Below are positions 18,181 through 39,195 of a stretch of DNA of 46,326 nt, piece by piece. The translations under genes and the position numbers were made by a program. Within the stretch, counting starts at the first letter, position 1. Each line of letters begins with the position of its first letter. The notes under the pieces were generated by a model. The model was not told the DNA's origin. It saw only the letters and a list, made by a program, of their open reading frames with translations, and did no database searches. This stretch comes from Limisphaerales bacterium (GTDB taxonomy: Bacteria > Verrucomicrobiota > Verrucomicrobiia > Limisphaerales > AAA164-E04): positions 1 to 46,326 of the forward strand of contig JAMASS010000035.1 in assembly GCA_024761205.1 (NCBI GenBank), read 5' to 3'.

Positions 18181-19390
18181 ATGAAACATACCTTCCTTAA
18201 GGTAGCGGCTTGCGTCGCATCCGGGATTTTTGTGGTGCTAAGCCTTTTGAAAGCTGGATCGGTCAAAATCATCTCCACGCCAAATGACGGTATTATGTCA
18301 AGCGAGAGGTCGATGGCTCGACCTTTAGCGATCTGATTTAAGTCAGCCATCGAGTGAGTAGCGGTTATGGCCGTTGGGATGGTCAGCGGAGCGCAAATGG
18401 TGCGGGGTGGGTGTATGTCGCCTAGATGGGTAGTGGGAAGGTCGCTGCGCAGGGAAAGGAAGGTGAGCCGTGGAAGCATCTGATGCTGTTTGCTTAGGAA
18501 ACTCCGATTGATAACCGGAAACTCGGTTTTCTCTGGAAAAATCACCGAAAACAGCAGAGTTCAGAGATTAAATCAGAGTTTCCTTTGTTCAAATGACGAC
18601 GGGACTTCCTTTGCGCCGGAGCAGAGTCTCTTGATGTGGACCGGAGGTTGGATGGCGGCGGAACCTTGGCGCCCGACAGTCACAGTAATGTTTGTGCTTT
18701 ATGTCAATTGGCACGGGTTGGCACGGGTGAGGTCCGAAGAATCTGCCGGGTAAGGTTGGGGAGTAGTACTTGTCACGCGCTTAGTTGACGAGGGGAAGAC
18801 GTTGGGCAAAGAAGTGGAGGCAAATCCGACGCCCACTGGTACTTGCGGCTGTTGTGGAATCCGCGCATTCACTCACCGCAGGATCGACTCCACATCATGT
18901 ATCGAATGGCTGATGGCAGGACTCGTGACATAGCGCTTCTGAAGTCGCTGGATTCAGGGAGGTCCTTTTCCTTACGGAAACTCAATGAGTGGGAGATTGA
19001 AGCCTGCCCGATGAGTGCGCTGCGTTTGCCGAGGGAAGGTCGGGCCTCTTCTTGGCGACGGAGCGGCTAGGGCGCGTCGATCTGCAAATGGTAGGGGCGG
19101 ACAATCAAATCATGGAGACCGTACTGGGATTCATGGGTACGAATCGGCCGGGGAAAGATCCCTTGATTTCGAGTAATGGGAAAGGTGATACGGTCATCGC
19201 TTGGTGCGAAGGTGCTAGATGGAAGAAGGGGAGCTTGTTGAGATGGCAACTGTTCAATGGCTCGGACCGGCTTCGAACGAAATCTGAGGTTCCGTTACGG
19301 TTCGTGAAGGTTTGGTGTTTTCCTGTGACGGTCGCCGACGGAACCGGGAACTTTATTCACCATTTCACTGTTTTAACATTGGGGTGATCA
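18181..19390 (+). pseudogene. Decayed BNR/sialidase-like secreted protein
   Basis: A start and signal-peptide-like segment (MKHTFLKVAACVASGIFVVL) lead into KIISTPNDGI, then a stop at 18334-18336. Recognisable pieces of a BNR-repeat (exo-alpha-sialidase-like) protein follow in shifting frames: WVYVA with an in-frame TAG where Trp is usual before MGSGK, SNDDGTSFAPEQS near 18590, PTGTCGCCG near 18835, LHIMYRMADGRTRDIALLKS near 18885 onward, EIEACPMSALRLP, and NGKGDTVIAWCEGARWKKGS near 19170-19230. The Asp-box-like DDG.SF motif is clear. Many frameshifts and stops make it non-functional. It lies downstream of the pump gene on the same strand. Assignment rests on motif memory of this family and could be a neighbouring BNR family. 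Confidence 0.6.
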
Positions 19391-19499
19391 GCCTCGACCG
19401 TATCCACCAACCGGCGCTGAGCTTGGCACCCAAGTTTGACCGAGAAGCGGCAAAGTAATGGAAAAATCCGAGCTGGCGCCTGGACGATAGAAATCATCT

Positions 19500-20900
19500 G
19501 TTACCTCCAAGGGCATGACGGAGTGGATTGCGGCGCATACAAATATCTATCTCAGCGCCGACAAACTTGAGGCGCCGCCGAATGAGGCTCCCGGCGGGCT
19601 TTTTCTTCTTGATGAAAGGGCAACTATATGAGTTGGCTGGCACGCTAGGTGGTGAAATGAACGGAGGGAGTTTGGTCCATCACGAAAGTGGCGTGCTAGC
19701 GCCGTTTTCCGACGTCGAACTCCTTACCCAATTGAAAGGCGATGGCTATTTAGGCGCGCCGTTGACTTCGGACGATAGCCGAGCCGTTGGGATTCTGACC
19801 GCTCTTGATACCAAGCCAATCTTCGAGATTTTTACTGACCGAGCGAGCACCGAGTTGAATTGAGGCATCATGCATCGGCATATGAGGGAGAATTGGAGGG
19901 GCGCTGCAGCACGTTCACAAGATGGAGTCGATTGGCACTTTGGCGAGCGGGATCACGCATGATTTAACAATATCCTTGGCGTCATTCTGGCGAACGCCGA
20001 GATATCGCTGTTGGATTTGAGCCTAGATCACGGTGTGTATTCGTCGATTGAGGATATTCTCAGCTCGGCTAAGCGAGCAACTTGGTGAATTAGATCAATG
20101 ATATTCAGCTGCAGCAAGGCCCGTGGTGCGTGAGATGATATCACTGGCAGAGACAGTGAATAATGCATTCCATCATTCTGGAGATCATTGATATCAAATG
20201 TACCATTGCGCCCGACCTGCCATTGGTGCTTGCCGATTCCGACCAGATTCATCGGGCATCGTCAATCTGTTGTACCAGCGCCTGGCGTGCAATGGACGAT
20301 TCCGATGGACGGATTGAAATTGTTCCAAAACGGGTCGAGGTCACTGCCGAACTGTGCGGGACCGAAGTTGTTCGGATGATGGGACCTTTCTTTCTCTAGC
20401 GGTTTCGGACAACGGAAGCGGGATGGGCGCAGAAACTCAGCGCCGGATCTTTGATCCGTTTTTCACGACCAGAGGTCCGGGCTAAGCCACGGGATTGGGT
20501 CTCTCTGTTGTGCGCAGTATGGTGCAAGGCCATGACGTCAGTATGCGAGTGTCCAGTTAGAAAGATGAAGGGGCGACGTTTACGATTTTGTTTCCGGAGG
20601 TGAATAAGCAGGACGAAGGTGTCGCTCCGCTTTAAGGCGAGCTGTTTCGCTGAAACGACGCAGGAATTTGATGGCGTGATTATTATTATTTACATGTCGA
20701 AGAGGGCAAGAGTGGAGGTGTTTCGCCAGATTCGAAGGGTACGATCGGATGGCCAATGATTTTGACTTCTGGAAACTTTGATGAATCCGTGAAAGCGGCA
20801 GCCGAGATTGTCGGCGTCCGTGAGTTTTTGAACAAGCCCCACTCGACAAAATCTTTGCGCGATAGCCTTGGCCGTGTGCTTCCTGCTGTTGAGGTGGGTC
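19500..20900 (+). pseudogene. Decayed GAF hybrid sensor histidine kinase
   Basis: Remains of a multidomain signalling kinase in several frames. Around 19528-19860 there is a GAF domain ending in GILTALDTKPIFEIFTDRAS. At 19919-19960 comes a HisKA H-box (KMESIGTLASGITHDL, phosphoacceptor His codon 19958-19960). Near 20225 there is an N-box region (ADSDQIHRAIVNLL with a frameshift). At 20398-20550 come the G1/F/G2 boxes of the HATPase domain (SDNGSGMG, IFDPFFTTRGPG, a stop, then TGLGLSVVRS). At 20752-20892 lies the end of a receiver domain (MILTSGNFDESV ... FLNKPHS). Stops and shifts lie between all domains. The order GAF-HisKA-HATPase-REC is that of an orphan hybrid kinase. Confidence 0.75.
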
Positions 20901-21010
20901 GAACCCTAAGCCGGAGTCTGTCAAGCAATCAATTCGAACGAGGCTTCATGGCGTGGCCGGAATTGAACGTGCTGCCGGAGGGGGTTGGGCGGGTGCGTCG
21001 CGTTCGTGGC

Positions 21011-21050
21011 CGAACCAGCGAGTAGACGAGTGGATCCATCCGCTGGTTTG
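21011..21050. repeat. Hairpin repeat, copy 1
   Basis: CGAACCAGCG (21011-21020) pairs with CGCTGGTTTG (21041-21050) over 10 positions including one G-T pair, with a 20-base loop containing the palindrome TGGATCCA. The 23 bases 21012-21034 recur at 38709-38731 with two differences, followed in both places by ATCCGC. This suggests a dispersed repeat family of the genome. Confidence 0.5.
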
Positions 21051-21920
21051 GGCAAGGGACGCAATTGATCTTGATGCGCGAGTCAAAAGCCGGAGCACAA
21101 GACCTAAGCATCGGGCAGATTCATTCTTCGCTCCGGAGGAAGCAAGGCCGTTGCGAGGGAGACTGGATGGGAAAGCAAGTGAACCAGCCTGTAGGTGTAC
21201 TTGCCCGGCAAGGGCAACTGAAATGACCGACGCCATGGGGCTACACCGCGGCGATGCCACGGAAAGGGGCCGATCCGATGAGCGCAGGAGCCGTAGTCCC
21301 ACGGAGCGAGGCGAAGAACTGTCTCCCAACGGCCGGCTCAGGTAGGGACCGTGGGGGGCCGGAAGATCGCTCGACCGGGCGCTGCTTCATCATCCGGGGC
21401 ACCGAGATGGGGACAAACCGTGGGGAGGCCCGGCGCCCTCGGCTGGGGAGCACCCAGGATTCGCTGAGCCAGAGGGAGCTCCTTGTGTCTGCGCGGGCGG
21501 GTAAGATTCGCCAGCGCGCACGTGCCCCCTAGGGCAACGGACGCCCTTGGCTCTGCTGCCCGAGATGGGCAGGGGGCGCCGGATACGAGGCGGTCCTCCC
21601 GCCGCTCCGGGCAATGGAGCGCGCGGTGCGAAGCCGTGGAGAATAGGCTGATCGCTTGAGCGCCAAGCGGAGGCTCAAACCCTGGCCGCACCTCAGACGG
21701 GCGTTACTCCTAGGGCAACCGGGACGTTGGAAGATTGGCGGGAGAGGGCTGAGGAAGCCCGCCCCAAGACAGGGGATGGCCCCCAAAAGCGCGGGCCCGG
21801 CCGTGGGCATGGTTTGTTCGCCTGTGCCCTTGATGTCTCTGGGCATCCTTCGCTGCGGCTTCGGATGACGAATGGGAGGAGGCCGTTGGGCGTTGATATG
21901 GACCCGCCGAGATGCCGAGA

Positions 21921-21954
21921 GGTTTTGGAGTGCGGCGCTTCCTCGCCGCTTTGG
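21921..21954. repeat. REP-like GC hairpin
   Basis: GCGGCG (21932-21937) and CGCCGC (21944-21949) form a 6-bp stem with a 6-base loop, flanked by GGTTTTGGAGT on the left and TTTGG on the right. The layout resembles abundant intergenic hairpin repeats of verrucomicrobial genomes. Only one clear copy is present in this window, so family membership is inferred. Confidence 0.4.
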
Positions 21955-22517
21955 ATTTGCTGCGACCTTGTCTTTTTCCTAATAGTTTGTCGTCACTCAA
22001 AGACAAAGACGACGTTTGGACTCAGTTTCGGAATGGTTGCCTTTTTCCGCAGAACGCCAGAGCCAACCGGATGGCGGCCCCTTGGAACTCTGAGTTCAGT
22101 TTCCGCTTCATCCAGCCCTCCGCTTGAGCAATTTGTTCGGTTTCGAGATTCGTTTCGCCAGGCTGTTTCCCCCATTGTCAAAGACGAGGTTCGTGCCCGT
22201 AATAAATGAAAATTTATCGGAGGCCAAATAAAGGATGGCTAAGATAACTTCTTTGGGTAACGCTCATCGCCCTGAGGTGATGACTCGGCCATTGCCCAAA
22301 AGGCGATCTCCTCACTGCCTTCCTTTGCTATCAGTTCTTGAAAGAAGGGCACCATCTTTCACATCAACGTTTTGACGCCCGACGGGGACACGAGAATATA
22401 AAGACGTGATCTGAATATTCATTATGACTTTGGTGATTCTAACTTCGGAATGGGCATGAATACTAAGCGGACGAACCGTCCGGGTATGCCTACGAGGGCG
22501 TTAGCTCAAATTGACTA

Positions 22518-22860
22518 CCTGACTACCACAATTTGTTCTACAATCTCAATCTCATCTTTTCTTTCTTCCAGCAACCGCTCGTAATAATCTTCAATTGGCG
22601 GCAAAATGGCTGTCTGCTGCCCGCTTTTATCGGATATATACTACGCGATTTCCTCCAGTCCACTTGTCATTCGTTCTCTCATGGGGATGACCGCCGATAG
22701 TATCTGAAAACCTCGATTGAGCCCTTTCTCGACTTATAGTATAGATCTAACCACTTGGTGCTTTGCAAGAGCACCTGCTTGATCGCGATTGCGCCCTTTT
22801 TATAGTACGTTACAGTAAGCAGCCGGTCATCAATCCATATCGCTCAGTAGCGGGTATTCT
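22518..22860 (-). pseudogene. Fragment of unknown protein, broken
   Basis: Not recognised. Read on the - strand from about 22850 there is a coding-like stretch containing WIDDRLLTVTYYKKGAIAIKQ and LDLYYKSRKGSIEVFRYYRR, a TGA near 22690, then a shifted frame that ends ILPPIEDYYERLLEERKDEIEI ... and stops at about 22518-22520. The residue choice (Tyr, Lys, Glu rich) differs from the surrounding junk and looks like a real protein C-terminus with breaks. It is divergent from the XRE relic and may have belonged to the same decayed island. Confidence 0.3.
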
Positions 22861-22892
22861 GATGCTTTGAGATTCGAATTTTTCAAAACACT

Positions 22893-22948
22893 ACTTATAG
22901 TATTATAAACGAATGCTAGAAACCAAGCGGAATATACTATTTAAAGTC
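22893..22948 (+). promoter_or_regulatory. Inverted TATAGT elements before XRE relic (C-box-like)
   Basis: ACTTATAGTAT (22893-22903) faces a related inverted element, ATACTATTTAAAGTC (22934-22948), about 40 bases before the XRE relic start. Controller proteins of restriction-modification systems bind boxes of the type GACT-tat-AGTC upstream of their own gene. A further GACTTATAGT occurs at 22731-22740, within the divergent relic. The resemblance is suggestive only. Confidence 0.35.
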
Positions 22949-22986
22949 TGTAGATTCAAAGTCATCGGACCTAGCATGTTCTTCTA

Positions 22987-23175
22987 ATGGAAATTCATTT
23001 TGATCAGGCTCCACGGAAGCTTGGTGAGATTACTCTCGGGGGAAGAAAAGAGCTAGGTTACTCGCAAGAGGGATTGGCTGCTCAGTGCGGCATCTATCGG
23101 ACATATCTGGGAACGGGGGAAGTGGACCGTTTCTTTGATGAACATTTTGAGGATACCAAAATTGCATTAAATTGA
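22987..23175 (+). pseudogene. XRE-family helix-turn-helix regulator relic (controller-like)
   Basis: 62 codons. Residues about 10-40 read KLGEITLGGRKELGYSQEGLAAQCGIYRTYLGT, the classical XRE helix-turn-helix with the SQE..A..CG..RTYLG signature. The reading frame then departs from the family (the usual VERGERN motif is replaced by GEVDRFFDEHFED) and stops early, so the C-terminal half is lost or shifted. Its position before a C5 methyltransferase relic, with inverted TATAGT elements upstream, recalls controller (C) proteins of type II restriction-modification systems. An ordinary phage-type or solitary XRE regulator is the alternative. Confidence 0.55.
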
Positions 23176-23489
23176 AAGCGTCCGAACTGATTTTCCTCGT
23201 GAAGTTCTGAATGATCGGGATCCTTGACAGCAATTGGATTTGTGTATTGGGAATCACTCCAACATCCTCAGAATGGTTGCCTTGGGCTTCTTCAGCCTGC
23301 ATTCCCAAATCCGACAGACATTCCAATCATCGGCTCGCAATCGCCGAGTTATCTGCCGATCTCGCTTTTGGTTATCGCCGATTTTTTTGAACCAGAACTT
23401 GGCGTTTTGTTTGGGTGAACGCATCAGCCATTTGGATGATTACTTCCTGAATTTATGCCAGCTTACAAATGAGTAACATTGCGATTTTA

Positions 23490-23696
23490 ACCCGATTCCC
23501 TTCAAGATTTGACGCCATTTGCATGACCGGTGCATTTCGCTTCGTGAAGCCCGCGATTCTACAATCCTTGCCCGGTGGTTATCATTTTTCGATTCGACGA
23601 GGAAAACTCGCGGCCGCGCAAATGATCGGGAATGCGCTTCCGCCAGAGTTCATCCGATGGCACGCCGAGGTCATCCGCAAGGAGTTTTGTCCGTGA
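23490..23696 (+). pseudogene. C-terminal relic of C5-cytosine DNA methyltransferase
   Basis: The frame around 23523-23690 reads ... ILQSLPGGYHFSIRRGKLAAAQMIGNALPPEF ..., which is the region of motifs IX-X of DNA C5-methyltransferases (REAARLQSFPD..., then IGNAVPP). The REA part is in another frame (SLREARD), so a frameshift lies between. Upstream, 23176-23490 has only short unrelated-looking frames, and the catalytic PCQ motif and SAM-binding motifs were not found. The gene is therefore largely deleted. When whole it would have methylated cytosine in a specific site, probably protecting DNA from a cognate nuclease. Confidence 0.6.
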
Positions 23697-23699
23697 AGG

Positions 23700-26180
23700 A
23701 AGAAAATGAAACAAGGGAGTTGCTGCTTGCGGTCTCACCGATAATCAGAAGACGGCAGTTCAATCAGAGAGCCACCGAGTTCTAATCGTCGAAGGTGTGG
23801 AATCCGGTAAGACCGAAGTCATGGCCCGCAGGATAGCCTAGTGGGTTGGGACAAATGATGTTCCCAAGGACAATGTCGTTGCATTTACCTTCACTGAGAA
23901 AGCAGCGGCGGAGATAAAGCGTCGAGTCAGAAGATGGATGGCTAAGATCACTGCCGACGATGAGGAAGCCAATCTCGCAGGCATGTATTATAGGCACAAT
24001 CCACGGCTACTGCCTGGCAAAACTGAGAGAATACTGGTCTGACGATTACCACAACTTCGACATCTTGGATGAATCTGCAAGATCATCGCTGATATTTAGA
24101 GAGTACCGTGGGATTCTTGGTCTTGAGAAATTGCAATCGGAGTTGGGCGTCGGGCCATTTAGTGGTGTATTGGAACAATTCATCCGTGGATATGACCAAC
24201 TGCATGAACACAATCGATTCGATATCTGTATCACGGACAATAGCCCGCCCTATGAACTGGGGCAAAAGGAGAGAGATTGGTGCGCGAAGGCGAAGCTAAG
24301 AACCCACGTAGGCGATTCAGAAAAAGGTGCCGCGTTTTCTGAATCATCCACCCGCTATTATGCTTATCTGTGCTGCCACCGCTTCTTGGATTTCGCAACT
24401 TCGCAAACAGAATCCTTTAGGAATCTGATTGATGACCCTTCCAAACATCCATTGTCTTCCGAGATCCACCTCGTCATCGATGAAGTTCAAGACATCAATC
24501 CCCTTCAACGCGACTCATCAATGCCCTTGTTGCCGACGCAAGGCGACTGACAGCCGTTGGTGACCATCACCAAGCCATTTATGGATTCCGAGGCGCAAAA
24601 GTAGAGATGATTGGGGAGATGTCGAATCAGTTCACCAAGGCCGATGATTTCTCCGTGGTGGATATTCAGGAAAACTTCAGATCAACCCCGAGAATCATCG
24701 AGATCGCCAATAATTGGGCGAAGAAAATTGGGAATATTCATGGGATGTGAACCCCACCGATGACGCATGGCAAAACAGAACGTACCGATGCTCATCGTTC
24801 ACATGTTGCTCAAGTTGATTTTCCCAACAGAAGTGACGAGGCGCAGTGGGTCGGCAAAGCAATTCGCGCCCTCGTGCCCAGCGAAACGGAAGGCGCTGCC
24901 CACGACCGGGCGTGAGGGAAAAATATGCGGCTTGGCACTTTCAGACATCGCCGTTTTGGTGAGATCGTCAACCGATGTTCGAACCTGCATACAGGCTCTT
25001 GAAGTGGCCGGCATCCCTTCAATTGTTCGGGCGGGTCCGGATCTCTACTCGCAGCCGGAGGCGCTTATGTTTCTTGGTGCGCTTGCCATTGCTGGCGACC
25101 TCGACGAGTTCTATGGGACGTCTCAGAATCCTCAGAAGGGCCTGCCTGGGCGGATCAAAAGCGTGTTGAGCTGCGGTCCATATCCGAAGTAAGTTGTCCA
25201 AAACTCTGACGCATTGCTTCAGAGTTCTGGATTGGTAGCAATGCCGCAGACGAGAGATCGGTTAGTGTTCGCTGCCACTTGGATCAGAAATCGAGTTGAG
25301 GATGGCGAGAGTTGTCCGAAAACCGCTGCATCAATTCTACGTTCAGCGAGCCTCAAGGAATTCATCTGTAAGAAGGCTGAATTGTGAAGGGTCTTTCCGC
25401 AGAAAATATTCCACTGGCTTTGCATTAGTCGTTCCGGTTCTAGGACATCGAAATTCATTAAGGAGCTTAAACCAATGATCTTGGAGTCTGGCGGAACGGT
25501 TACTTCCGATTCCGACAGACTGCTGGAGGACATCAAATATGCTCCGTTGCAAATTGAGCGTGAAGTTCATCTCGCCACGTCTTTTTCGGACCTTCGCTAT
25601 TATCTTTCCTGTCCTCACGATTTTTACCTCCGAAAAGTTCTCGGATTTGCTCCCACGATTGATCAAGGCTTCGGCTACGGTCGAGGTGTTTATAATCTAA
25701 TGCGAGCCATTCATTCCGATCCCTCGAAATGGGCAAACTTAGCGGAAGACAGGTCCTCGCTTGTCACGGAGATCCATGACTTGGTCAAAGAAGGGCTTTT
25801 CTACCTCCGCTATACCACGGGCGACACGGCGGACAACATGCAGAAAAAAGGCGTGAAATTGGTCGCAGACTGCGTGAGCGATTTCGCAAAGGAACTGGCC
25901 ATGCTTACATTCGAACCAGAGGAGGAATTTGAAACTCTGCTTAAGTACGAAGACGGCGAAGAAGCCGTGTTGATTTCAGGTGCGATGGATGTGGTAAGGC
26001 TCATTGACTTCACAAGTCTGAAGGTCGGTATTCAGACTTTCATCTGAAATTGGATGAAGATTACCGACTAGACTATTAGCTGATCGGATGCTTATGTGAA
26101 TCTTGGTGTCACATTTCCAGATTCTAAAATTCAATAGGCAGGAATTCTTGTCCGGCAACCACGCTTAAGCGGGTCATCAC
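23700..26180 (+). pseudogene. Decayed UvrD-type helicase with RecB-like nuclease domain
   Basis: Superfamily 1 helicase motifs appear in order but in several frames: Q-motif LTDNQKTAVQS and a damaged Walker A (EGVESGKTEV) at 23730-23830, AFTFTEKAAAEIKRRV near 23885, the long intact frame 23960-24550 containing IHLVIDEVQDINPLQRD (motif II), AVGDHHQAIYGFRGAK (motif III) near 24555, and ENFRSTPRIIEIAN (motif IV) near 24670. LSDIAVLVRSSTD follows near 24930. Motifs V and VI are missing. From 25480 a RecB/PDDEXK-type nuclease part follows: SFSDLRYYLSCPHDFYLRKVLGF, then LIDFTS near 26005 and LDEDYRL in another frame near 26048. Ends are approximate. It directly follows the methyltransferase relic, suggesting one defence island. 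Confidence 0.75.
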
Positions 26181-26205
26181 TTCTCAGCAATAACTTCGAA
26201 CCAAT

Positions 26206-26541
26206 GATGCAAGGAGTATTAAAATCTGGCAAGATTCACTAGGTGGAGTGAATGGCATTCTAGCAATCGATACGGCAGTCCTTTTCCGAAAATTCAGAGG
26301 AACAGATTTTTGGGTAATTGGATTCTCTGACCGTGCGAATTTCGAGTAGCTAAAGTCGTGGATTGACCTGATTTCTCCGGGGCAGCGGCTCATGGGGACA
26401 TTCGTCCCACCCTTTCCGGATTGCGCTAGGCGGTTTGACCTTGATCTGAGATGGGTTGGTATGAAGGTATTACCAATGACGGCTCTGGCCTTTAAGGTCT
26501 CTGGCGAAGAGGAGCGAGATTTTGACCGACGGCTAAGATAG
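26206..26541 (+). pseudogene. Unknown coding-like fragment
   Basis: Not recognised. One frame reads through as RSIKIWQDSLGGVNGILAID ..., LFRKFRGTDFWVIGF ..., a TAG near 26347, then LKSWIDLISPGQRLMGTF and further ordered protein-like sequence ending ... EERDFDRRLR before a TAG at about 26539. Frame consistency across one stop and the amphipathic composition suggest a decayed gene, perhaps the 3' partner of the helicase relic. No motif allows a family call. Confidence 0.3.
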
Positions 26542-26777
26542 CTGCGAATGGCCGACGTGGGGTAAGGGCTTCACAGCCGGCCGTCGCTCACCTCGTTTCT
26601 TTGGCGAGCGCCCCCTGGGGCGCAGGTGTCTGCGTTGGACACCAAAGTCTCTGGCGTCTATTTGATTTCCTGACTGTGGTAACGGTGCATCTGCTGGCTA
26701 ACTTCAATCCGAAGCATGGGTTGAAATCCGCGCCATTATGCCGAGATGTCGTGCAGGAATCGGCTTCCAGTCTGTCG
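26542..26777. other. No recognisable gene
   Basis: About 235 bases between the decayed island and the stop of the AT-rich membrane gene. It contains a GC-rich patch (26570-26640) and no convincing gene. One open frame of 77 codons on the + strand has no family features. Confidence 0.4.
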
Positions 26778-27230
26778 TTAATCTTTGCAGTTCTTTGTAT
26801 CCTTATCCATTCGGATTTTATCAGCTCTGAATAACAAAATAAGCAAGGAAACTCCGATATTCAACAAAACTAAGATAAACAATCTAGTAGTGAAAATAAC
26901 TAGCGGAGAAACGATCGGGAAAACTCGCAAGGGGATAAAGGTGGAGAGAAAAAACAACACAGGAGCAACCCAAAGAATGTGTAATTTATTCCAAGTCGTG
27001 AAATAAAATATCACAGCGATAAGCCACCAGAAGAAAGTCATAATATCCGTGCACAGCAAGGAATTGCGTTCCAGAATAGCATTGGTACAGGCACGGAATG
27101 CCTGATTACGGGATTTGTATTGCTGATTGTATTTCCAATATACCGGAATCGCATCAAAACAGGTACAGTATGCCCAGCCCAAACTGAACGAGACTACGAT
27201 CCCCCAAAGAATCCAACCCAAGATGGTCAT
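26778..27230 (-). CDS. Four-helix membrane protein, unknown
   Basis: 150-residue integral membrane protein with hydrophobic helices at about 3-22, 60-80, 83-102 and 106-133, separated by a polar Tyr/Gln/Arg/Asn-rich loop (about 30-58) with Cys residues at 22, 24, 48 and 60. The C-terminus is basic/acidic and cytoplasmic-looking. I recognise no family. The coding sequence is visibly AT-rich compared with the GC-rich genes on either side, which suggests foreign origin. It is on the same strand as the DUF1501 gene and starts about 95 bases after its stop, but the composition argues against an ancestral operon. The ATG has no evident ribosome site. Confidence 0.6.
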   Translation of the reverse strand: MTILGWILWGIVVSFSLGWAYCTCFDAIPVYWKYNQQYKSRNQAFRACTNAILERNSLLCTDIMTFFWWLIAVIFYFTTWNKLHILWVAPVLFFLSTFIPLRVFPIVSPLVIFTTRLFILVLLNIGVSLLILLFRADKIRMDKDTKNCKD

Positions 27231-32812: not shown

Positions 32813-32916
32813 GAGTGTTTCAGACTAAGGTCGTTTAGCGACAATTATATCATGCACGAGTGCAAGGTAAACCGGTTTGTTGGATGGTTGCGAGTTAGTC
32901 TAGGCTGGTCGATCTT

Positions 32917-33275
32917 CTAGGCACAGTCAGAAAGGCACGGAGTAGGAGTCCTTGTGTTCTTAAATGGCGGGTCGGACCATGGTTCGAGATAGTCGAGACT
33001 ATAGCGATGGGTCTGATGGTTGTCTGTCACCAGAACCATTCTCTTGCAGAGTGCTTGAGTGATGAACATTCGGACGAGGGGATCCGCGTGGTGTTTGGGC
33101 AGGCTCCTGGCGCATGTCGTGTGACTCCAGTTGATGGATAGCTCGCGAGCGGCCCAGTCACTAATTTGGCTCAACCTGCCTTGGGTTATCCTTAGCTTGC
33201 TCAGGTCTTTCTTGACGCTGATTTCCCAAATGGAAATCGCGCTAATCCAGATTGTGTTCGTTGGATCTTCCAGAA
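32917..33275 (-). pseudogene. PIN-domain (VapC-like) toxin fragment
   Basis: On the - strand, 33275 downward reads LLEDPTNTIWISAISIWEISVKKDLSKLRITQG..., then CARSLPKHHADPLVRMFITQAL and LVTDNHQTHRY, in one frame to a stop at 32917. These are the central and C-terminal parts of PIN-domain ribonuclease toxins of type II toxin-antitoxin systems (WEI with Glu, then HHxDPFDRMLIAQA, then TxD). The N-terminus with the first catalytic Asp is missing, and the ATPase relic upstream runs straight into it in a different frame at about 33265-33278, so this is a deletion junction. The family's DxF before RM is altered to DPLVRM. No antitoxin gene was found. Confidence 0.65.
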
Positions 33276-34532
33276 GTCATCGGGCGATTGCGAAATCAGC
33301 ACGATTGCACCGCCTTTCGAGCGGCTCATGCAGTGCAGATCTGAAAGTGCTGGCAGTTTTTTCCTAGAATCTGGTGGGCTTCATTCACTAGACATAGTAT
33401 GTGCGTAAGCCATGAGCGCCATCAGCGTTGTGCTCCGCATCAACGAGGCTATTCAAATACTGGTCGAGTGCATTCAGGATGAGATTCACCATAATCGTGC
33501 GGCTGTCCTTAGCTATGTTCGGGGGAAGCCTAATGATTCAGCTTTGCTGAAAAAGGAAGCCGGATCATGTTGCGGTTGGAACAGCGGAAAACGGCAGACC
33601 TCGCGCATGGTCGAGATGTCTCCGTCTTCCTTCATCTCAGCTTCCTTGTAGACTGACAGAAGCGCATCACGGACGTGGTGCAACTTACATGGTGTCTTCG
33701 AACCAAGCGCAATGCTGGCTGCATTATGCAGAGCCGTTCGCTGCTGAGCTCCAAGATGACTGCCCTTGAGTCGGGCAAGCGACTTGTGGAGACGGGAAGC
33801 GGATTCTGTAATGTCGACTTCCTCTTTGGATCGCGTCGACACCTATCAAGCGGGATCGGTTCACATGGAGGTTCTCATAACCTTCTCCGGTGGCATCATT
33901 ACCCAAATCACCCTTGAAATCAAAGGCCGGCAAGAGGATAGACGCTTGCTCATGGATACTCCGCAGCATCGCTATCGCCATGCGGGTCTTTCCTGAGACG
34001 ATACTACCTCATGATGGCGCTATGTGGTGAACCATCAGGGCCGTTCAAATCCCAAAGGATTTTTTTCTTGGTTGTTATTTCCTCGGCTATCTCGCCGACC
34101 GGAACAGCGATCTGTCCGGACGAGAAAGTCGCGCCGATTTCTCCGTTCACTGGGTGAAACGCGCCGCTGTCCGCTGGCAGTTCCGCAACATCGACTAGGC
34201 GCTTGACAAACTTCGCGACGTCTTTGTCGGCTTGTTTCCATTCATTGTCGAGTAGTTGCAGGCCACGCCGCCAATACGATCAGTGCAAGCCAGACCGAAA
34301 GCGTTGTACCGGTTCCAAAAGTATGTCGCCCTTGATTACCTTGCCCGGCTCAAGCTTATCTTCCAGAGGTGTTGGAGCAGAAGAGAGTGCCAAAGATCGT
34401 GATATGGCAAGGCATGCTGGCAGATAGTGTTTACGCATACCAAGATGCTTCATGAACTCTGTGTTGAGGTAATCGCTACTTTCATCCGTGCGGAAGTTCG
34501 CCCTCTGCGATTTCAACCAGTGAGAAGCTCAT
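33265..34532 (-). pseudogene. Decayed DndE-like / HerA-type ATPase fusion
   Basis: Starts with an ATG at 34532 overlapping the stop of the DndD-like relic (ATGA). An N-terminal part reads FRTDESSDYLNTEFMKHLGM ... LPACLAISRSLAL, resembling DndE (DUF1832), followed by a linker with a frameshift, then a FtsK/HerA-type ATPase: Walker A GSIVSGKT near 33980-34000, FDFKGDLGND, a long helical part, VNLILNALDQYL, a Walker B-like NEAHQILGKK near 33365-33400 (Asp changed to Asn), and GGAIVLISQSPDDF at about 33280-33310. Sequence then jumps into the PIN gene. Stops and shifts are numerous. In intact Dnd-type operons such an enzyme would work with DndD on DNA modification or restriction. Confidence 0.6.
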
Positions 34533-36325
34533 GCCGGCACCTTCGCCTCGTCAAAATATCCGACATTGACCGTGGAGTGACCAATATCACCGATGCGCTC
34601 GAAATGGATCAGGTATTTCTCCAACCACTTCCGTGTTAGTGGATAGCAGGATCACTTGGTGTTTGCGTTGGGCAAGATGGTTCTGCACGCCCTTTCGGCG
34701 CTGGACATCAAGGCGTCCGAGCGGTGTATCGACCACCATCGGAAAATCTCGTCCCCCGACACTGAAGATACTGCCAAAATCAGGGTTTGCGTGAATATCT
34801 GCTTTTCACCTGCGGATAGGTCGAAACGTCGCACGTCCTCGCCGTTTATATCCAGAAGCTATGCATCATGGTTCTCATCAATTGCAATGCGCTCCACGAG
34901 ATCTTTCTTGTGCGACATGAAACGGGTGTGCTTCAGCCATCGCTTTGGCTTGGAACTGCCTTGTCCATAATTTCATCGACCCCGGACGCCACTTTGTGAG
35001 CACTCTGCTCGCGACGCATTGACAGCTGTGCTTGATTGTACTGACTGGTGAGCCTGGTTAGTTCAGTATTCTTCTGATGGACTTGAGCTTCAATAGACGT
35101 AATCTCGCGATTGAGTCCACCAATCTCCCGATCCAATTTTTGAATCTCGTTATTCAGTGTTAAAAAGCGCTCACGCTTCTTGTCTACATACGGTGCAACT
35201 GCTTTTGTGCGTGTGATTTCTTCATCCAAGCGTTTCACCTTTGCTTCATTGCTGAAAATCGATTCCAGAAGCTTAACGATTACTGACGCACCGAGTCGAT
35301 CTAGCTCGTCAAGCCGGTCAATGACCTTGCTGCGCTCCACCTCATTCAAGTAAGGATGCAGGTAGTCATCGGCACAGTGGTCCGGAGGTGGATGCCAAAG
35401 CTATTCCCAGTCTGACCGCGCTATTACTTCTGGCGGTTGCTCGGATTGGGATCAATCTTGGCCATCTCTCGGTATCGACTGCGCTGAGGAAGCGATCAAG
35501 CTTGCTATCACCCTCAAGCTTACCGGTCTTCCAATTATTTGCGTACCGTTTCTGCTTTGAGACGTTTCTTCAACTCTTGGCGAAACCCCAGGCCAGGCAA
35601 AGCCAGAGCCATAATCCTTAGCCATCAATTCTTCAAGCCGTGTGCGTTCGGCATCAATGCTTTGTCGATAATGATTGAGTTGCTCCATCTGTTCCTGAAT
35701 CTGCACTTGTGGTCCGGTCCCGTAACTGGCTTCTCGCCGGCGATCTCGAGCATATAGGCGCACAAGACCTCTGCCAATTGCCGTAAGATCGGAATGCCGA
35801 GTAACCCTTCGATTCCTATGCTCACCTGCGCCGCCATTTCGCGTTTGGCAAAGGCGCTGACCTCCTCGCCATCGAACAGGAAGAACGCCGCCATATAGTA
35901 GGGCAGGAAGGTGCGAATAATGTAATCGCAATCCCAATCCCGTCGATCATCGCCCTATAAACCTTCTGGCCTAACGGATCTTCACCTCGGCCCTCCATAG
36001 ATGTGGATTTGATCATCCATGAACTTCAATTTGACCGAACAGGAGTTACGGCCCGCCTCCCTTGCTCCGTGATGCAGTGCCTTCTCCAGAAAGTTCTTGT
36101 ACGACGATCTGTCCTTGTCGCTTCCCGAGAAAGGTGAGCGTGCAATGAGCGATAAGCCATCACGCCCAAAAAGACCAAGGACAATTGCCTCGAAAAGGCT
36201 GGTTTTGCCGTAGCCGTTCGGCGCGCCGAACAGAACGATGTTTTATCTGGACTTGGAGCAGGAAACTCAAAATTAGCCGTGATATGGGCCTTCCATTCTC
36301 GCAAAACGATATGCGAAATATACAT
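34529..36325 (-). pseudogene. Decayed DndD-like SMC/ABC-type ATPase
   Basis: Begins MYISHIVLREWKAH at 36325, five bases after the small-protein relic. Walker A GAPNGYGKTSLFEA lies at about 36190-36240 (a frameshift precedes it), followed by ... SSYKNFLEKAL ... SCSVKLKF. FLFDGEEVSAFAKREM, near 35865-35890, is the conserved FDGE signature of DndD-type proteins. A coiled-coil part follows (34970-35350, E/K/L-rich heptad pattern), then the ABC signature LSAGEKQI (34790-34830), Walker B PMVVDTPLGRLD (34730-34760) and HQVILLS. The C-terminus reads LIHFERIGDIGHSTVNVGYFDE and stops at 34529. At least six breaks separate the parts. DndD acts in DNA phosphorothioate modification; the specific system here is inferred. 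Confidence 0.7.
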
Positions 36326-36330
36326 CAGAT

Positions 36331-36533
36331 TCACCCATCTACTTCGATGCGATCGAGAATGTCATCGAATTTGTCTCGTAATCCGTGACGCCGTTTTTTT
36401 GCCAGTTTGGGTCAACCTCAGATTGGACAAGTTCCTCGAATCCAGCAAGCAGCAAGCCTTTTTCCTTGCACGCTGCCTTGATCATTTCCCGACCGTCTGG
36501 GTTGTTCAGAAGCACAACAACATTACGAGGCAT
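36331..36533 (-). pseudogene. Small leader protein of the Dnd-like cassette, frameshifted
   Basis: Opens MPRNVVVLLNNPDGREMIKAA..., then CKEKGLLLAGFEELV. One frameshift near 36410 changes the frame; in the corrected frame the end reads KKRRHGLRDKFDDILDRIEVDG and stops at 36331, 5 bases before the DndD-like start. The whole is about 66 residues, helical and charged. I recall small proteins of this sort annotated next to DndD-like ATPases as modification-system-associated proteins, but this needs a search. As the sequence stands the product would have a wrong C-terminus. Confidence 0.5.
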
Positions 36534-37590
36534 CTATTTTCTTCCTTGAATAACTCTGGAGCCTCGGATGATACGGACAAGGCAACAGCTCCGCTTCATC
36601 ACTCTCCCGCACTCCAAACCTGGCGGATGGACATCAGCTTGTGGAGCACAAGAACGCCATCTATCGCTTTTCCCCACAAATAGTGCGCTATTGGCACCCC
36701 CCCCCGTTACAGAGAACTCATTCACAATCTCCAAAAGAATGAAATGATGTGCGGCTTTTTGCCTGCTCATTGAAAATGCTTATCCACTAAGGCTGGGAAT
36801 CGAAACCGTTGGTCTAGTTGCCAAACTGTCGGCTATGACTCAATCTGGAAACAGCGATAGGATGAACAGGATACAACAAGATAGTTTTTATCCTGTTCAT
36901 CCTATCTCACCTGAGTGCTTCAATGAGGTGGCGGAGTTCTTCCTGAACCCCGTCGGGTCGTCCCACAGTCTGGAGGATCTCGCCCTTAATCACGTCACGA
37001 AAGTGCTATCGCCTTTGGCTCTGATTACTTGAGTCCACTTCGTTGTCGAAAAAGCCAGCGCGTTCGGGTTTGGCATTTCTGGTTCGTTTGAGGACTGCGG
37101 CATGGAATAGCGTTAGTGGGCTGAACGTGAAGGTGTTTTTGCAATTTGGACACTTCGGGCGGTGAGATCGAGAGGCCTACCTTTATCCTAGCAGCTGATG
37201 CATGAGGTCAAGTTATTCATGTGGATCCGAGGAGCGACAGGGCCATCCCGTTGATAGTCGCCGTGTACATTGGCTAAGCGTAAAGTGTGTAACTGCAATA
37301 GAGGCCAATATCCACGGAGAAGACCGTCGTGACAATCCTCTCGGTCGTCTGGATTTGCTGGCTTAGCATCGAATGATGGCTGCTGTCCTTCGATTGCAAC
37401 ATGCCCCACATCTCGAATTTCCCAGCCACTCGCCGAGTTGCTGCTCGGCCGCGAGATCCGGATTCAGGCGAAATCAAACGGTGTTGAAAGATTGCCATTT
37501 ACAGCCGGCTCAGCTTCTTGCGAGCGGGGTTTTCTGTTGATGCACGGTGGTTAGGGCGCAGTCCAAAGATTTGCGGATTATACACTTGAT
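36534..37590. other. Decayed region with fragments of uncertain origin
   Basis: About 1 kb without an intact gene. On the - strand, 36534-36770 is open (78 codons) but has no family motif. Near 36919-37010, one - frame reads DVIKGEILQTVGRPDGVQEELRHL, which recalls the C-terminal helix of ECF-type sigma factors, and near 37040-37160 another reads CPNCKNTFTFSPLTLFH, a possible zinc-ribbon end. Neither call is secure. A hairpin repeat lies at 36856-36906. Confidence 0.3.
36856..36906. repeat. 18-bp perfect inverted repeat
   Basis: GATAGGATGAACAGGATA (36856-36873) and TATCCTGTTCATCCTATC (36889-36906) are exact inverted copies around a 15-base loop. Arms built of AGGATGAACAGGAT-type units are common as interspersed hairpins in many environmental bacterial genomes. 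No T-run follows, so it is more likely a repeat of that kind than a terminator. Confidence 0.7.
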
Positions 37591-37659
37591 TTGGTGGCAA
37601 AAATCTTTGCGGGATAAAGAGCATTGTCCACTCGGGCTCTCGCCGTCGCCTCGGGGGGG

Positions 37660-38170
37660 GCGGGCGGGTTAATCGTCCAACGGCAGCGGGATCGTTCCAT
37701 AGAGCCTCGGCAAGGCCCGCAGATGAGCGTCTCCGCCTGATCTGCAATGTGACGTTGCGATAGAAGCAATTTGCCCGCGTCTCGGGCTCTCAAAGTAGAC
37801 CTCGCAAACTTGCGGGAGTATAAGTGCAGTATATCCATACCCTTGTCGTCCGTGCAAACCGCCACCCCCCCCGGAGCCGTGTGCTCAAAATAACGAATCC
37901 TTGAAGCCCTGCCGAGGTAAGTCTCCCCGCCGCCTTCGTCCGAATCTGATGCGTCGCCCGGTCTTTCCCGCCGTCCTCTTGCCCACGGCGCCCGCCCTTG
38001 GCGGTTCCGGGTTCCTAACCGAGCGCAAAACTTTCATGCCGCCCCCCGTCCGCTTTTGCCCACAGTGCCGCATCCGGCGCCTTTAAGCGGCCTTCGGCGA
38101 GCGTTGCTCATGTTGGCCTGTTTCCCGCTGAAGTAAGTTTCATCCGCCTCAGCCCGTGCCGGAGGACGGG
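37660..38170 (-). pseudogene. IS1595-family transposase relic
   Basis: On the - strand, near 38153 downward: EADETYFSGKQANMSNARRR ... GTVGK, close to the DDE transposase motif of IS1595/ISXO2-like elements (VDETYxGGKxxNKH ... GAVGK). Further on, after several frame changes, FEHTAPG, then a G-run, then VCTDDKG, which matches the second catalytic Asp region (TAPGxxVYTDD). The G-run at 37867-37873 is a likely indel site. No terminal inverted repeats or target duplication were found, and the N-terminal zinc finger and C-terminal NGIESFW motif were not seen. It is a decayed mobile element. Confidence 0.6.
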
Positions 38171-39195
38171 GCGTCCTTGCCTTCGCGTGGCCCAAGCCTG
38201 ACGCAGGCGGCCTTTGGCTCATACTTGCGCTTCAAACACACTTGGCGGCCGCTGTCTCAAGCGGGGACATATTCATCAACTCGATGACCGTGACGCTCTT
38301 GGCGGCATCCCTTTTTCCGGTGTTCTACACCAGTGGACTCTGCTCATTTCGTGCCCAAAATAGCAGCAAATCCAAGACAGCATACCAGACTGTCTGTATT
38401 AATTCCCCGAAGATTTCACCATCTCGGGCACGGAGAAGGTCACGAGGCAAAAGCGATCATCACTCGCTACTTCCTAGACCACAGGGTCCGCGATCGGAAG
38501 ATCGCCAAGCCTCCAGCCACGCCCGGAAGTCAATGTCGTAAGGCGGGCTAGCTCTTCCCGAAACGTCAAGAGTAGATGACGCTTCCTGCTGGAAGGGCTG
38601 GGGCCCCCGGGGGTTATAGCGTGGTTGCGGTCCTTGATTTGGCAGTTGGTCGATGGAATTTTTTCCAAGGGCGCGCGTCGAGGGGCTAGGTCGCTGTGTT
38701 CGCAGCCTGAACCAGCGAGCAGACGGGTGGAGCATCCGCCAGCAGAAGACCGTCTCCTAACCGCTCCAATCAATGCCGATCAGCGTGGCGAGGGCTGCCA
38801 CCGGGAGCGGGCGGGGTTCGCTACTGTTGAGGAAGCACTGCTAATTTCCATCATTGGCCTTTGGCGATTGGAGGCAAGGGAGTTACGTTCGGGATTGGCA
38901 AGCGCGGCTTGAGGGAAAGCAGCGGTCGGGATCAGGCGCCCCAAATTCTTCGAGCCAATGGGAGCCCCATACCGCGAGCCCTCGCAGAGGCCGTGGAGGA
39001 TTGGAGAGCACAGTCGGGATGCTTTGCCCGAATCCTACGCGATTAACGCCTGGATGCAATGGCCTCAGGGCAGTTGTTACGAACTAAAATCGCCTGACGA
39101 ATGGGCAAAGTAAGACGGTCAATATTTCAACGCTAGTGCCGAGATAACCATGTACGGCGATGGCCATTGGGGCGACGGATGGCCGCGATCAACGG
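38171..39195. other. GC-rich decayed stretch, nothing recognised
   Basis: About 1 kb with open frames on both strands that lack motifs. It includes the second copy of the dispersed repeat at 38709-38731. Some frames look weakly protein-like (for example ANGSPIPRALAEAVEDWRAQ near 38957-39015), but I cannot assign a family. It is probably a mixture of degraded genes and repeats. Confidence 0.35.
38709..38738. repeat. Dispersed repeat, copy 2
   Basis: The 23 bases at 38709-38731 match 21012-21034 with two differences, and ATCCGC follows. Unlike copy 1 the flanking inverted arm is degenerate (CGCCAGC in place of CGCTGGTT), so the hairpin is weakened here. Confidence 0.45.

Follow-up and report, generated by a model that had tools for sequence, protein, structure and literature searches.

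A broken cassette of dnd-related genes in a genome assigned to the Limisphaerales raises the question of whether it stands for a DNA-modification or defence system that does without the sulfurtransferase DndC, or is what is left of a system that once had it. The window, by which we mean the whole 46,326-nucleotide stretch that was analysed (contig JAMASS010000035.1, assembly GCA_024761205.1), carries the cassette on its minus strand. A first-pass annotation, made from the sequence alone, had described a decayed cassette with a DndD-type ATPase, a DndE-HerA fusion and a conserved small leader in their original order, and all of this proved right. Its further suggestion, that the missing dndC marks a different kind of cassette, is the point at issue here.

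Three decayed genes in a preserved order

Between 36533 and 33257 the minus strand holds, in this order, decayed genes for a small protein, a DndD-type coiled-coil ABC ATPase and a DndE-HerA fusion, and the ORF list contains no long open frame there. Frameshift-aware alignment with intact relatives revealed 1 frameshift in the small protein, 10 in the ATPase and 10 in the fusion, at identities of 62%, 52% and 65%, respectively, to the nearest intact homologue used. When all six frames were searched with profiles at full sensitivity, the three relics were recovered again, the matches as a whole lying well outside what chance would give, and the order and strand first annotated were borne out by tblastn, alignment and a check of the ORFs. 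The features are as follows.

36337..36533, minus strand: small leader protein relic (putatively of the Pfam Sp-DndD type), with one frameshift near 36409; from tblastn and profile
34550..36325, minus strand: relic of the DndD-type coiled-coil ABC ATPase; from PADLOC, a family search of the whole genome and frameshift-aware alignment
34529..34532, minus strand: ATGA overlap of the dndD stop and the dndE-herA start; from the sequence
33257..34532, minus strand: relic of the DndE-HerA fusion; from tblastn, profile matches in eight frame-pieces and alignment
about 34532-34180 and about 34030-33257, minus strand: DndE-like part and HerA-like motor, respectively, within the fusion relic
32917..33256, minus strand: stretch downstream of the fusion relic, without recognisable cassette homology in the six-frame profile search

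The ATPase relic aligned to residues 1-690 of the 694-residue homologue from Methylorubrum extorquens AM1, with 4 stops and with deletions that include one of 25 and one of 51 residues; tblastn with the AM1 protein gave E-values of 3e-60 and 5e-49 for two linked sets of segments. The motifs reported for it at first reading are all legible across the frames: Walker A (GAPNGYGKT), FDGE, LSAGEKQ and Walker B (VVDTPLGRLD). The fusion relic (E 2e-52 in tblastn with the AM1 fusion) aligned across both domains to residues 1-457 of 511, the 65% identity being to the copy in a Rhodobacteraceae MAG, and its HerA Walker B motif is damaged, IDEAH having become VNEAH. The sequence confirms the ATGA overlap at 34532, and in the intact MAG cassette dndD and dndE-herA overlap by the same 4 bases (8001-8004 in L030, ORF coordinates). 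Two boundaries required revision. The cassette had been drawn to 32917, but its recognisable part stops near 33257, the last ~55 codons of the fusion being unrecognisable; and a 5-base gap behind the leader had been counted to a broken-frame GTG at 36334, where homology sets the DndD start at the ATG at 36325.

Errors of assembly or sequencing in otherwise intact genes would leave broken frames too, and some of the frame changes do fall at homopolymers (A7 near 36410). Yet this explanation would have to cover more than 20 frameshifts, in-frame stops, deletions that reach 51 residues and an altered Walker B residue, all within 3.3 kb, whereas the flanking genes keep open frames of 1353, 598 and 1142 codons. 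On the number and kinds of lesions and the state of the flanking genes we rejected it as hardly credible. With dndC gone and each remaining gene broken, the window copy is non-functional and would not be expected to produce phosphorothioate.

Intact relatives carry dndC

Starting from a weak DNA match, we reached an intact cassette on the AM1 megaplasmid, which encodes a DndC of 380 residues, a small protein of 70, a DndD-type ATPase of 694 and a DndE-HerA fusion of 514; no dndA or dndB was recognised in the AM1 stretch. AM1 shares the order dndC - small protein - dndD - dndE/herA with Methylobacterium sp. GXS13, the Rhodobacteraceae MAG, whose dndD shows one apparent frame change, and a further genome, G614. 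In another (G799) the last two cassette genes run up to the contig end. No HerA-type relatives beyond these came to light. That intact leader-DndD-DndE/HerA trios recur in constant order, as the first-pass annotation had anticipated, is seen in these four loci; none turned up among 386 other genomes sampled from the window's phylum, and those found were in Alphaproteobacteria. The fusion is rare. Among 387 sampled genomes of the window's phylum it occurs in 1, that of the window, and among 385 sampled from the class of GXS13 in 3 (GXS13 included); a scan of a genome collection with one protein yielded two loci only, and the viral contigs searched held no relative.

DndC is absent from the whole window, as first stated; both tblastn and the full-sensitivity six-frame profile search agree on this. 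In the relatives, however, dndC lies directly upstream of the small protein in 4 of 4 HerA-subtype cassettes read over their full length, so that "always present" refers to AM1, GXS13, the MAG and G614, a fifth relative (L042) being cut by a contig end. The signatures of DndC, an SGGKDS PP-loop and FGCWTC cysteines, are intact in these relatives. The window copy is therefore not evidence for a dndC-free system, and the proposal of a different modification or defence cassette gives way to the four relatives with dndC immediately upstream and to the homology, described below, between the leader and the DndC C-terminal domain. To judge from its relatives, the window copy most likely once had dndC and has lost it. 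In the MAG, a cytosine methylase-like gene (judged by eye) and an unknown gene stand directly upstream of dndC (L030 2490-4263).

The ATPase groups with DndD

PADLOC, run on separate fragments, matched the ATPase relic to DndD/PbeC ATPase models, with E-values up to 1.5e-38 on one fragment, and labelled it PbeC (PDLC02736). Halorubrum PbeC has a CxC hook (CIC), whereas the coiled coil of the relic, and of every cassette ATPase examined, contains neither C.C nor C..C. The AM1 ATPase scores above the cut-off of TIGR03185 (DndD), and in the ATPase tree the relic groups with proteobacterial homologues, apart from Halorubrum PbeC. No PbeA (HKD nuclease and SF2 helicase) was recognised in the ORF lists of the window cassette or directly beside its AM1 and MAG relatives. 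We rejected the PbeC identity because the hook, the defining feature of PbeC, is absent from the relic and its intact relatives alike. On sequence grounds the ATPase belongs to the DndD clade, and the tool's label is misleading for the DndE-HerA subtype.

The small leader protein as a probable DndC tail

The small protein relic is 49% identical to the AM1 copy and 62% to that of the MAG. It was found by tblastn with the AM1 protein (E 2e-11 over two frames) and by a profile of eight small proteins, which matched the window at 36342-36533 (1.3e-11) and 36334-36411 (4.2e-6); the window's own frame had no match in Pfam or NCBIfam. PF20306 (Sp-DndD) matched the small proteins of Burkholderia glumae and Aureimonas at 3e-15 and 6e-15 and, below the cut-off, that of a second dnd locus in the window's genome (contig C74; 0.0018). 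The window and AM1 proteins have no PF20306 hit, yet one profile groups them with the B. glumae and Aureimonas proteins.

Matches to DndC came from several directions. In PADLOC, the small proteins of AM1 and C74 aligned with DndC models at about positions 404-457 (E 0.0012-0.0075), and the C74 protein also matched NCBIfam PRK06850 (DndC) at 408-461 (E 0.0028). DndC proteins come in two sizes, 11 short ones of about 340-395 residues and 13 long ones of 429-568 (the MAG open frame runs longer at its start), and the short ones stop where the tail domain would start. A profile built from eight small proteins, the window's copy not among them, matched the C-terminal region in 12 of the 13 long DndCs (best 2.6e-7, all ≤0.026) and none of the 11 short ones; the best of about 960 shuffled sequences reached 0.13. 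Alignment of the small proteins with the long DndC C-terminal domain in hhalign gave 95% and 3e-8. In the reciprocal comparison, a profile made from DndC C-termini alone recovered 8 of 10 small proteins, with E-values from 6.7e-7 to 0.021 against 0.34 for the best shuffle; its 13 rows include one (L043) that was taken from a wrong stretch, an error that should do no more than weaken it. This DndC-only profile matched neither the G614 small protein nor Halorubrum PbeB, and the idea that Halorubrum PbeB is a further DndC tail is accordingly unsupported. Finally, three genomes of the window's phylum (G043, G162 and G330; L021, L049 and L048) have a small-protein-like segment fused to the C-terminus of DndCs of 429-448 residues.

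Judged by these profiles, the small protein and the C-terminal domain of long DndC are homologous, a relationship that seems new. Given the reciprocal matches, the size split and the segment fused to DndC in some genomes, the reading that fits the small protein best is that of a DndC tail supplied in trans by a gene of its own, which would mean either that DndC was split or that a free tail was later fused. We found no statement of this origin in the literature covered, which left out most subscription papers, and priority is not established. A disordered regulator role has been proposed for the small proteins of CxC systems, and the likeness to DndC could be a coincidence between short helical sequences, the leader being an unrelated regulator of that sort. 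The region is indeed short (~50 residues), and the DndC-only profile missed both PbeB (PF20304) and the G614 protein; but chance would not be expected to produce reciprocal matches above all shuffles and limited to the long DndCs and one place in them, to give the same match in two independent libraries (PADLOC and NCBIfam), or to make short DndCs end where the domain would begin. Nor does disorder agree with AlphaFold2, which predicted helices at a mean pLDDT of 81 from two sequences. We regard coincidence as unlikely.

Two motor types behind DndD

In Pfam, the intact AM1 fusion consists of DndE (PF08870, 1.9e-7) and HerA (PF01935, 3.6e-6). The HerA part matches the HerA domain of the solved DptH (DndH) structure (7es4, 7e-7) and, in PADLOC, DptH/DndH and mads_8 of a defence system. 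The intact relatives keep the Walker motifs of the motor. A structure of the MAG DndE-HerA protein predicted from a two-row alignment had a mean pLDDT of 35.

Plasmids of B. glumae, Aureimonas and Rhizobium phaseoli carry cassettes of the order dndC - Sp - dndD - DndE/FtsK, in which FtsK_alpha and FtsK_SpoIIIE lie behind the DndE domain (seen in B. glumae by pairwise similarity, not by Pfam). In Mesorhizobium amorphae, a dndA-dndC-dndD-dndE set precedes a small protein, a second ATPase and DndE/FtsK; this compound locus on pM0123d (L037 4503-15227) also holds an AAA ATPase and an unknown protein after DndE-FtsK. At two loci (L053 13890-14126 and L054 13929-14132) a gene for a TusA-like sulfurtransferase, possibly an extra sulfur carrier, directly follows the DndE-FtsK gene. 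The slot behind DndD is taken by either of two unrelated motor fusions, DndE-HerA or DndE-FtsK, which seems to be a new observation. HerA-type DndE domains are nearer to each other and to the stand-alone DndE of M. amorphae and Rhizobium than to FtsK-type ones, and the ATPase tree likewise separates the HerA-type and FtsK-type sets. Because both comparisons keep the two sets apart, separate captures of a motor look likelier than a single fusion with a later swap.

Genomic surroundings

The window cassette has a PSCyt1/PSD1/DUF1501 block on one side and a sulfatase gene on the other. None of the three available genus-mates gave a DNA match to the interval 32813-37570; they do possess both flanking gene blocks, but not next to each other. 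The absence of a match, together with the position of the relic ATPase among proteobacterial homologues, points to a horizontal origin. Two dispersed repeat families (window 37570-38407 and 38664-39035) recur at about 25 and about 10 other places in the genome at 73-93% identity; no terminal inverted repeats were found for either. Elsewhere in the window, ~8 kb between an efflux operon and a DUF1501 gene (18500-26800) have short open frames only and are possibly another decayed stretch; five of these frames were searched and had no Pfam match.

The second dnd locus of this genome, on contig C74 (L015 1-3274), comprises dndC, a 68-residue small protein and a DndD cut by the contig end. Contig C42 (L016 1-1163) begins with a 98% identical partial copy of the C74 DndD that shares its end point, a hint that the locus has been duplicated.

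A model for the intact cassette and its alternatives

We consider it probable that the feature is a pseudogenised remnant, three genes of four, of a horizontally acquired phosphorothioation cassette, dndC - small protein - dndD - dndE/herA, whose intact form would combine a two-piece DndC that has a docking tail with motor-coupled recognition or sulfur insertion; the mechanism is inferred. DndC would be encoded in two parts, the sulfurtransferase with the catalytic function and a small C-terminal piece detached from it, and the latter would dock DndC onto the DndD ATPase. DndD would scan or clamp DNA together with DndE, and the HerA motor fused to DndE would pump the duplex, which would tie recognition or sulfur insertion to translocation. 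The HerA and FtsK families form hexamers, and either motor on DndE could let the complex move on duplex DNA. The docking role is suggested by the position of the small gene between dndC and dndD and by co-purification, in which Dnd proteins bind in the gene order IscS-DndC-DndD-DndE with a strong DndC-DndD contact (PMC4611135). DndE is regarded as the DNA-binding partner of DndD (PMC10853773). The partner of the small protein may vary, going by M. amorphae, where it heads the second ATPase module and does not stand behind dndC. As a wider and more tentative proposal, Sp-DndD might in general be a detached DndC C-terminal domain, forming a separable sulfurtransferase-DndD coupling, and the joining of two unrelated dsDNA motors (HerA and FtsK) to DndE might point to translocation-coupled DNA phosphorothioation.

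HerA motors in DndH serve restriction, not modification, and the motor of the fusion could likewise be a DndH-like restriction or effector arm: DndE-DndD would find unmodified DNA and the motor would translocate, without aiding modification. The matches of the HerA part to DptH/DndH and to mads_8 fit this, as does PbeC as the best PADLOC model, and Rakesh et al. put this HerA clade with some DndH proteins (PMC10853773). DndH, however, has a nuclease domain (same source), whereas Pfam finds only DndE and HerA/P-loop domains in the fusion, and no nuclease gene was recognised among the ORFs examined beside the AM1 or MAG cassette; an HNH gene does lie upstream of the R. phaseoli cassette, which is of the FtsK type. 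A restriction arm is therefore possible but doubtful. A different alternative takes the small protein - DndD - DndE/HerA trio as a dndC-free cassette, comparable to PbeBCD or to the second module of compound dnd loci, that serves another DNA modification or defence alone. The window itself, lacking dndC, and M. amorphae, in which a trio with an FtsK motor is a module of its own after a complete dndA-dndC-dndD-dndE set, would agree with it. We find it quite improbable, as dndC adjoins the small protein in all four full-length intact HerA-subtype members, the small protein is related to the DndC tail, and the relic ATPase lacks the CxC hook of Halorubrum PbeC and groups apart from it.

Taken alone, the relic is unremarkable: a dead copy of a rare system that has been described in part. 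An intact cassette is available in M. extorquens AM1, a laboratory strain. The part worth following is the leader protein: one family of small Dnd-associated proteins would gain an origin and a testable job, that of a DndC tail acting in trans. The presence of HerA and FtsK motors in one operon slot also argues that, in this branch of DNA sulfur modification, DNA pumping is of importance.

Comparison with known systems

DndE-HerA fusions beside a DndD-related ABC ATPase were described, within clade-3 HerA/FtsK, by Rakesh, Aravind and Krishnan 2024 (PMC10853773). The fusion, which the first-pass annotation had called less well known than canonical dndBCDE, is rare but already on record. The window cassette has the same domain fusion and ATPase neighbour and falls within that group, as a broken copy without dndC. 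A small protein as DndC tail and FtsK-type motors in the same slot do not appear in the available part of that text (PMC10853773).

With canonical Dnd (DndABCDE) the cassette shares a DndD-clade ATPase, present in the window as a relic, a DndE domain and, in the intact relatives, a DndC with PP-loop and cysteines, a gene that the window lacks. It differs in that the DndC tail is a separate small gene and DndE carries a translocase. The order small protein - coiled-coil ABC ATPase - DndE and the best PADLOC model recall PbeABCD and other CxC systems. Unlike these, the cassette has dndC in its intact relatives and a small protein apparently of the Sp-DndD (PF20306), not the Sp-CxC (PF20304), type; the missing hook, the TIGR03185 score of the AM1 ATPase and the failure to recognise a PbeA led us to conclude that it is not PbeABCD. 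DndH (DptH), which works with DndF and DndG, has a related HerA motor but also a nuclease, and the motor of the cassette is fused to DndE. The dndC - Sp - dndD - DndE/FtsK cassettes have a true FtsK motor in place of HerA, and 2 of 3 add a TusA-like gene; they share with the HerA-type cassette the four-gene order, a short DndC and the small-protein family.
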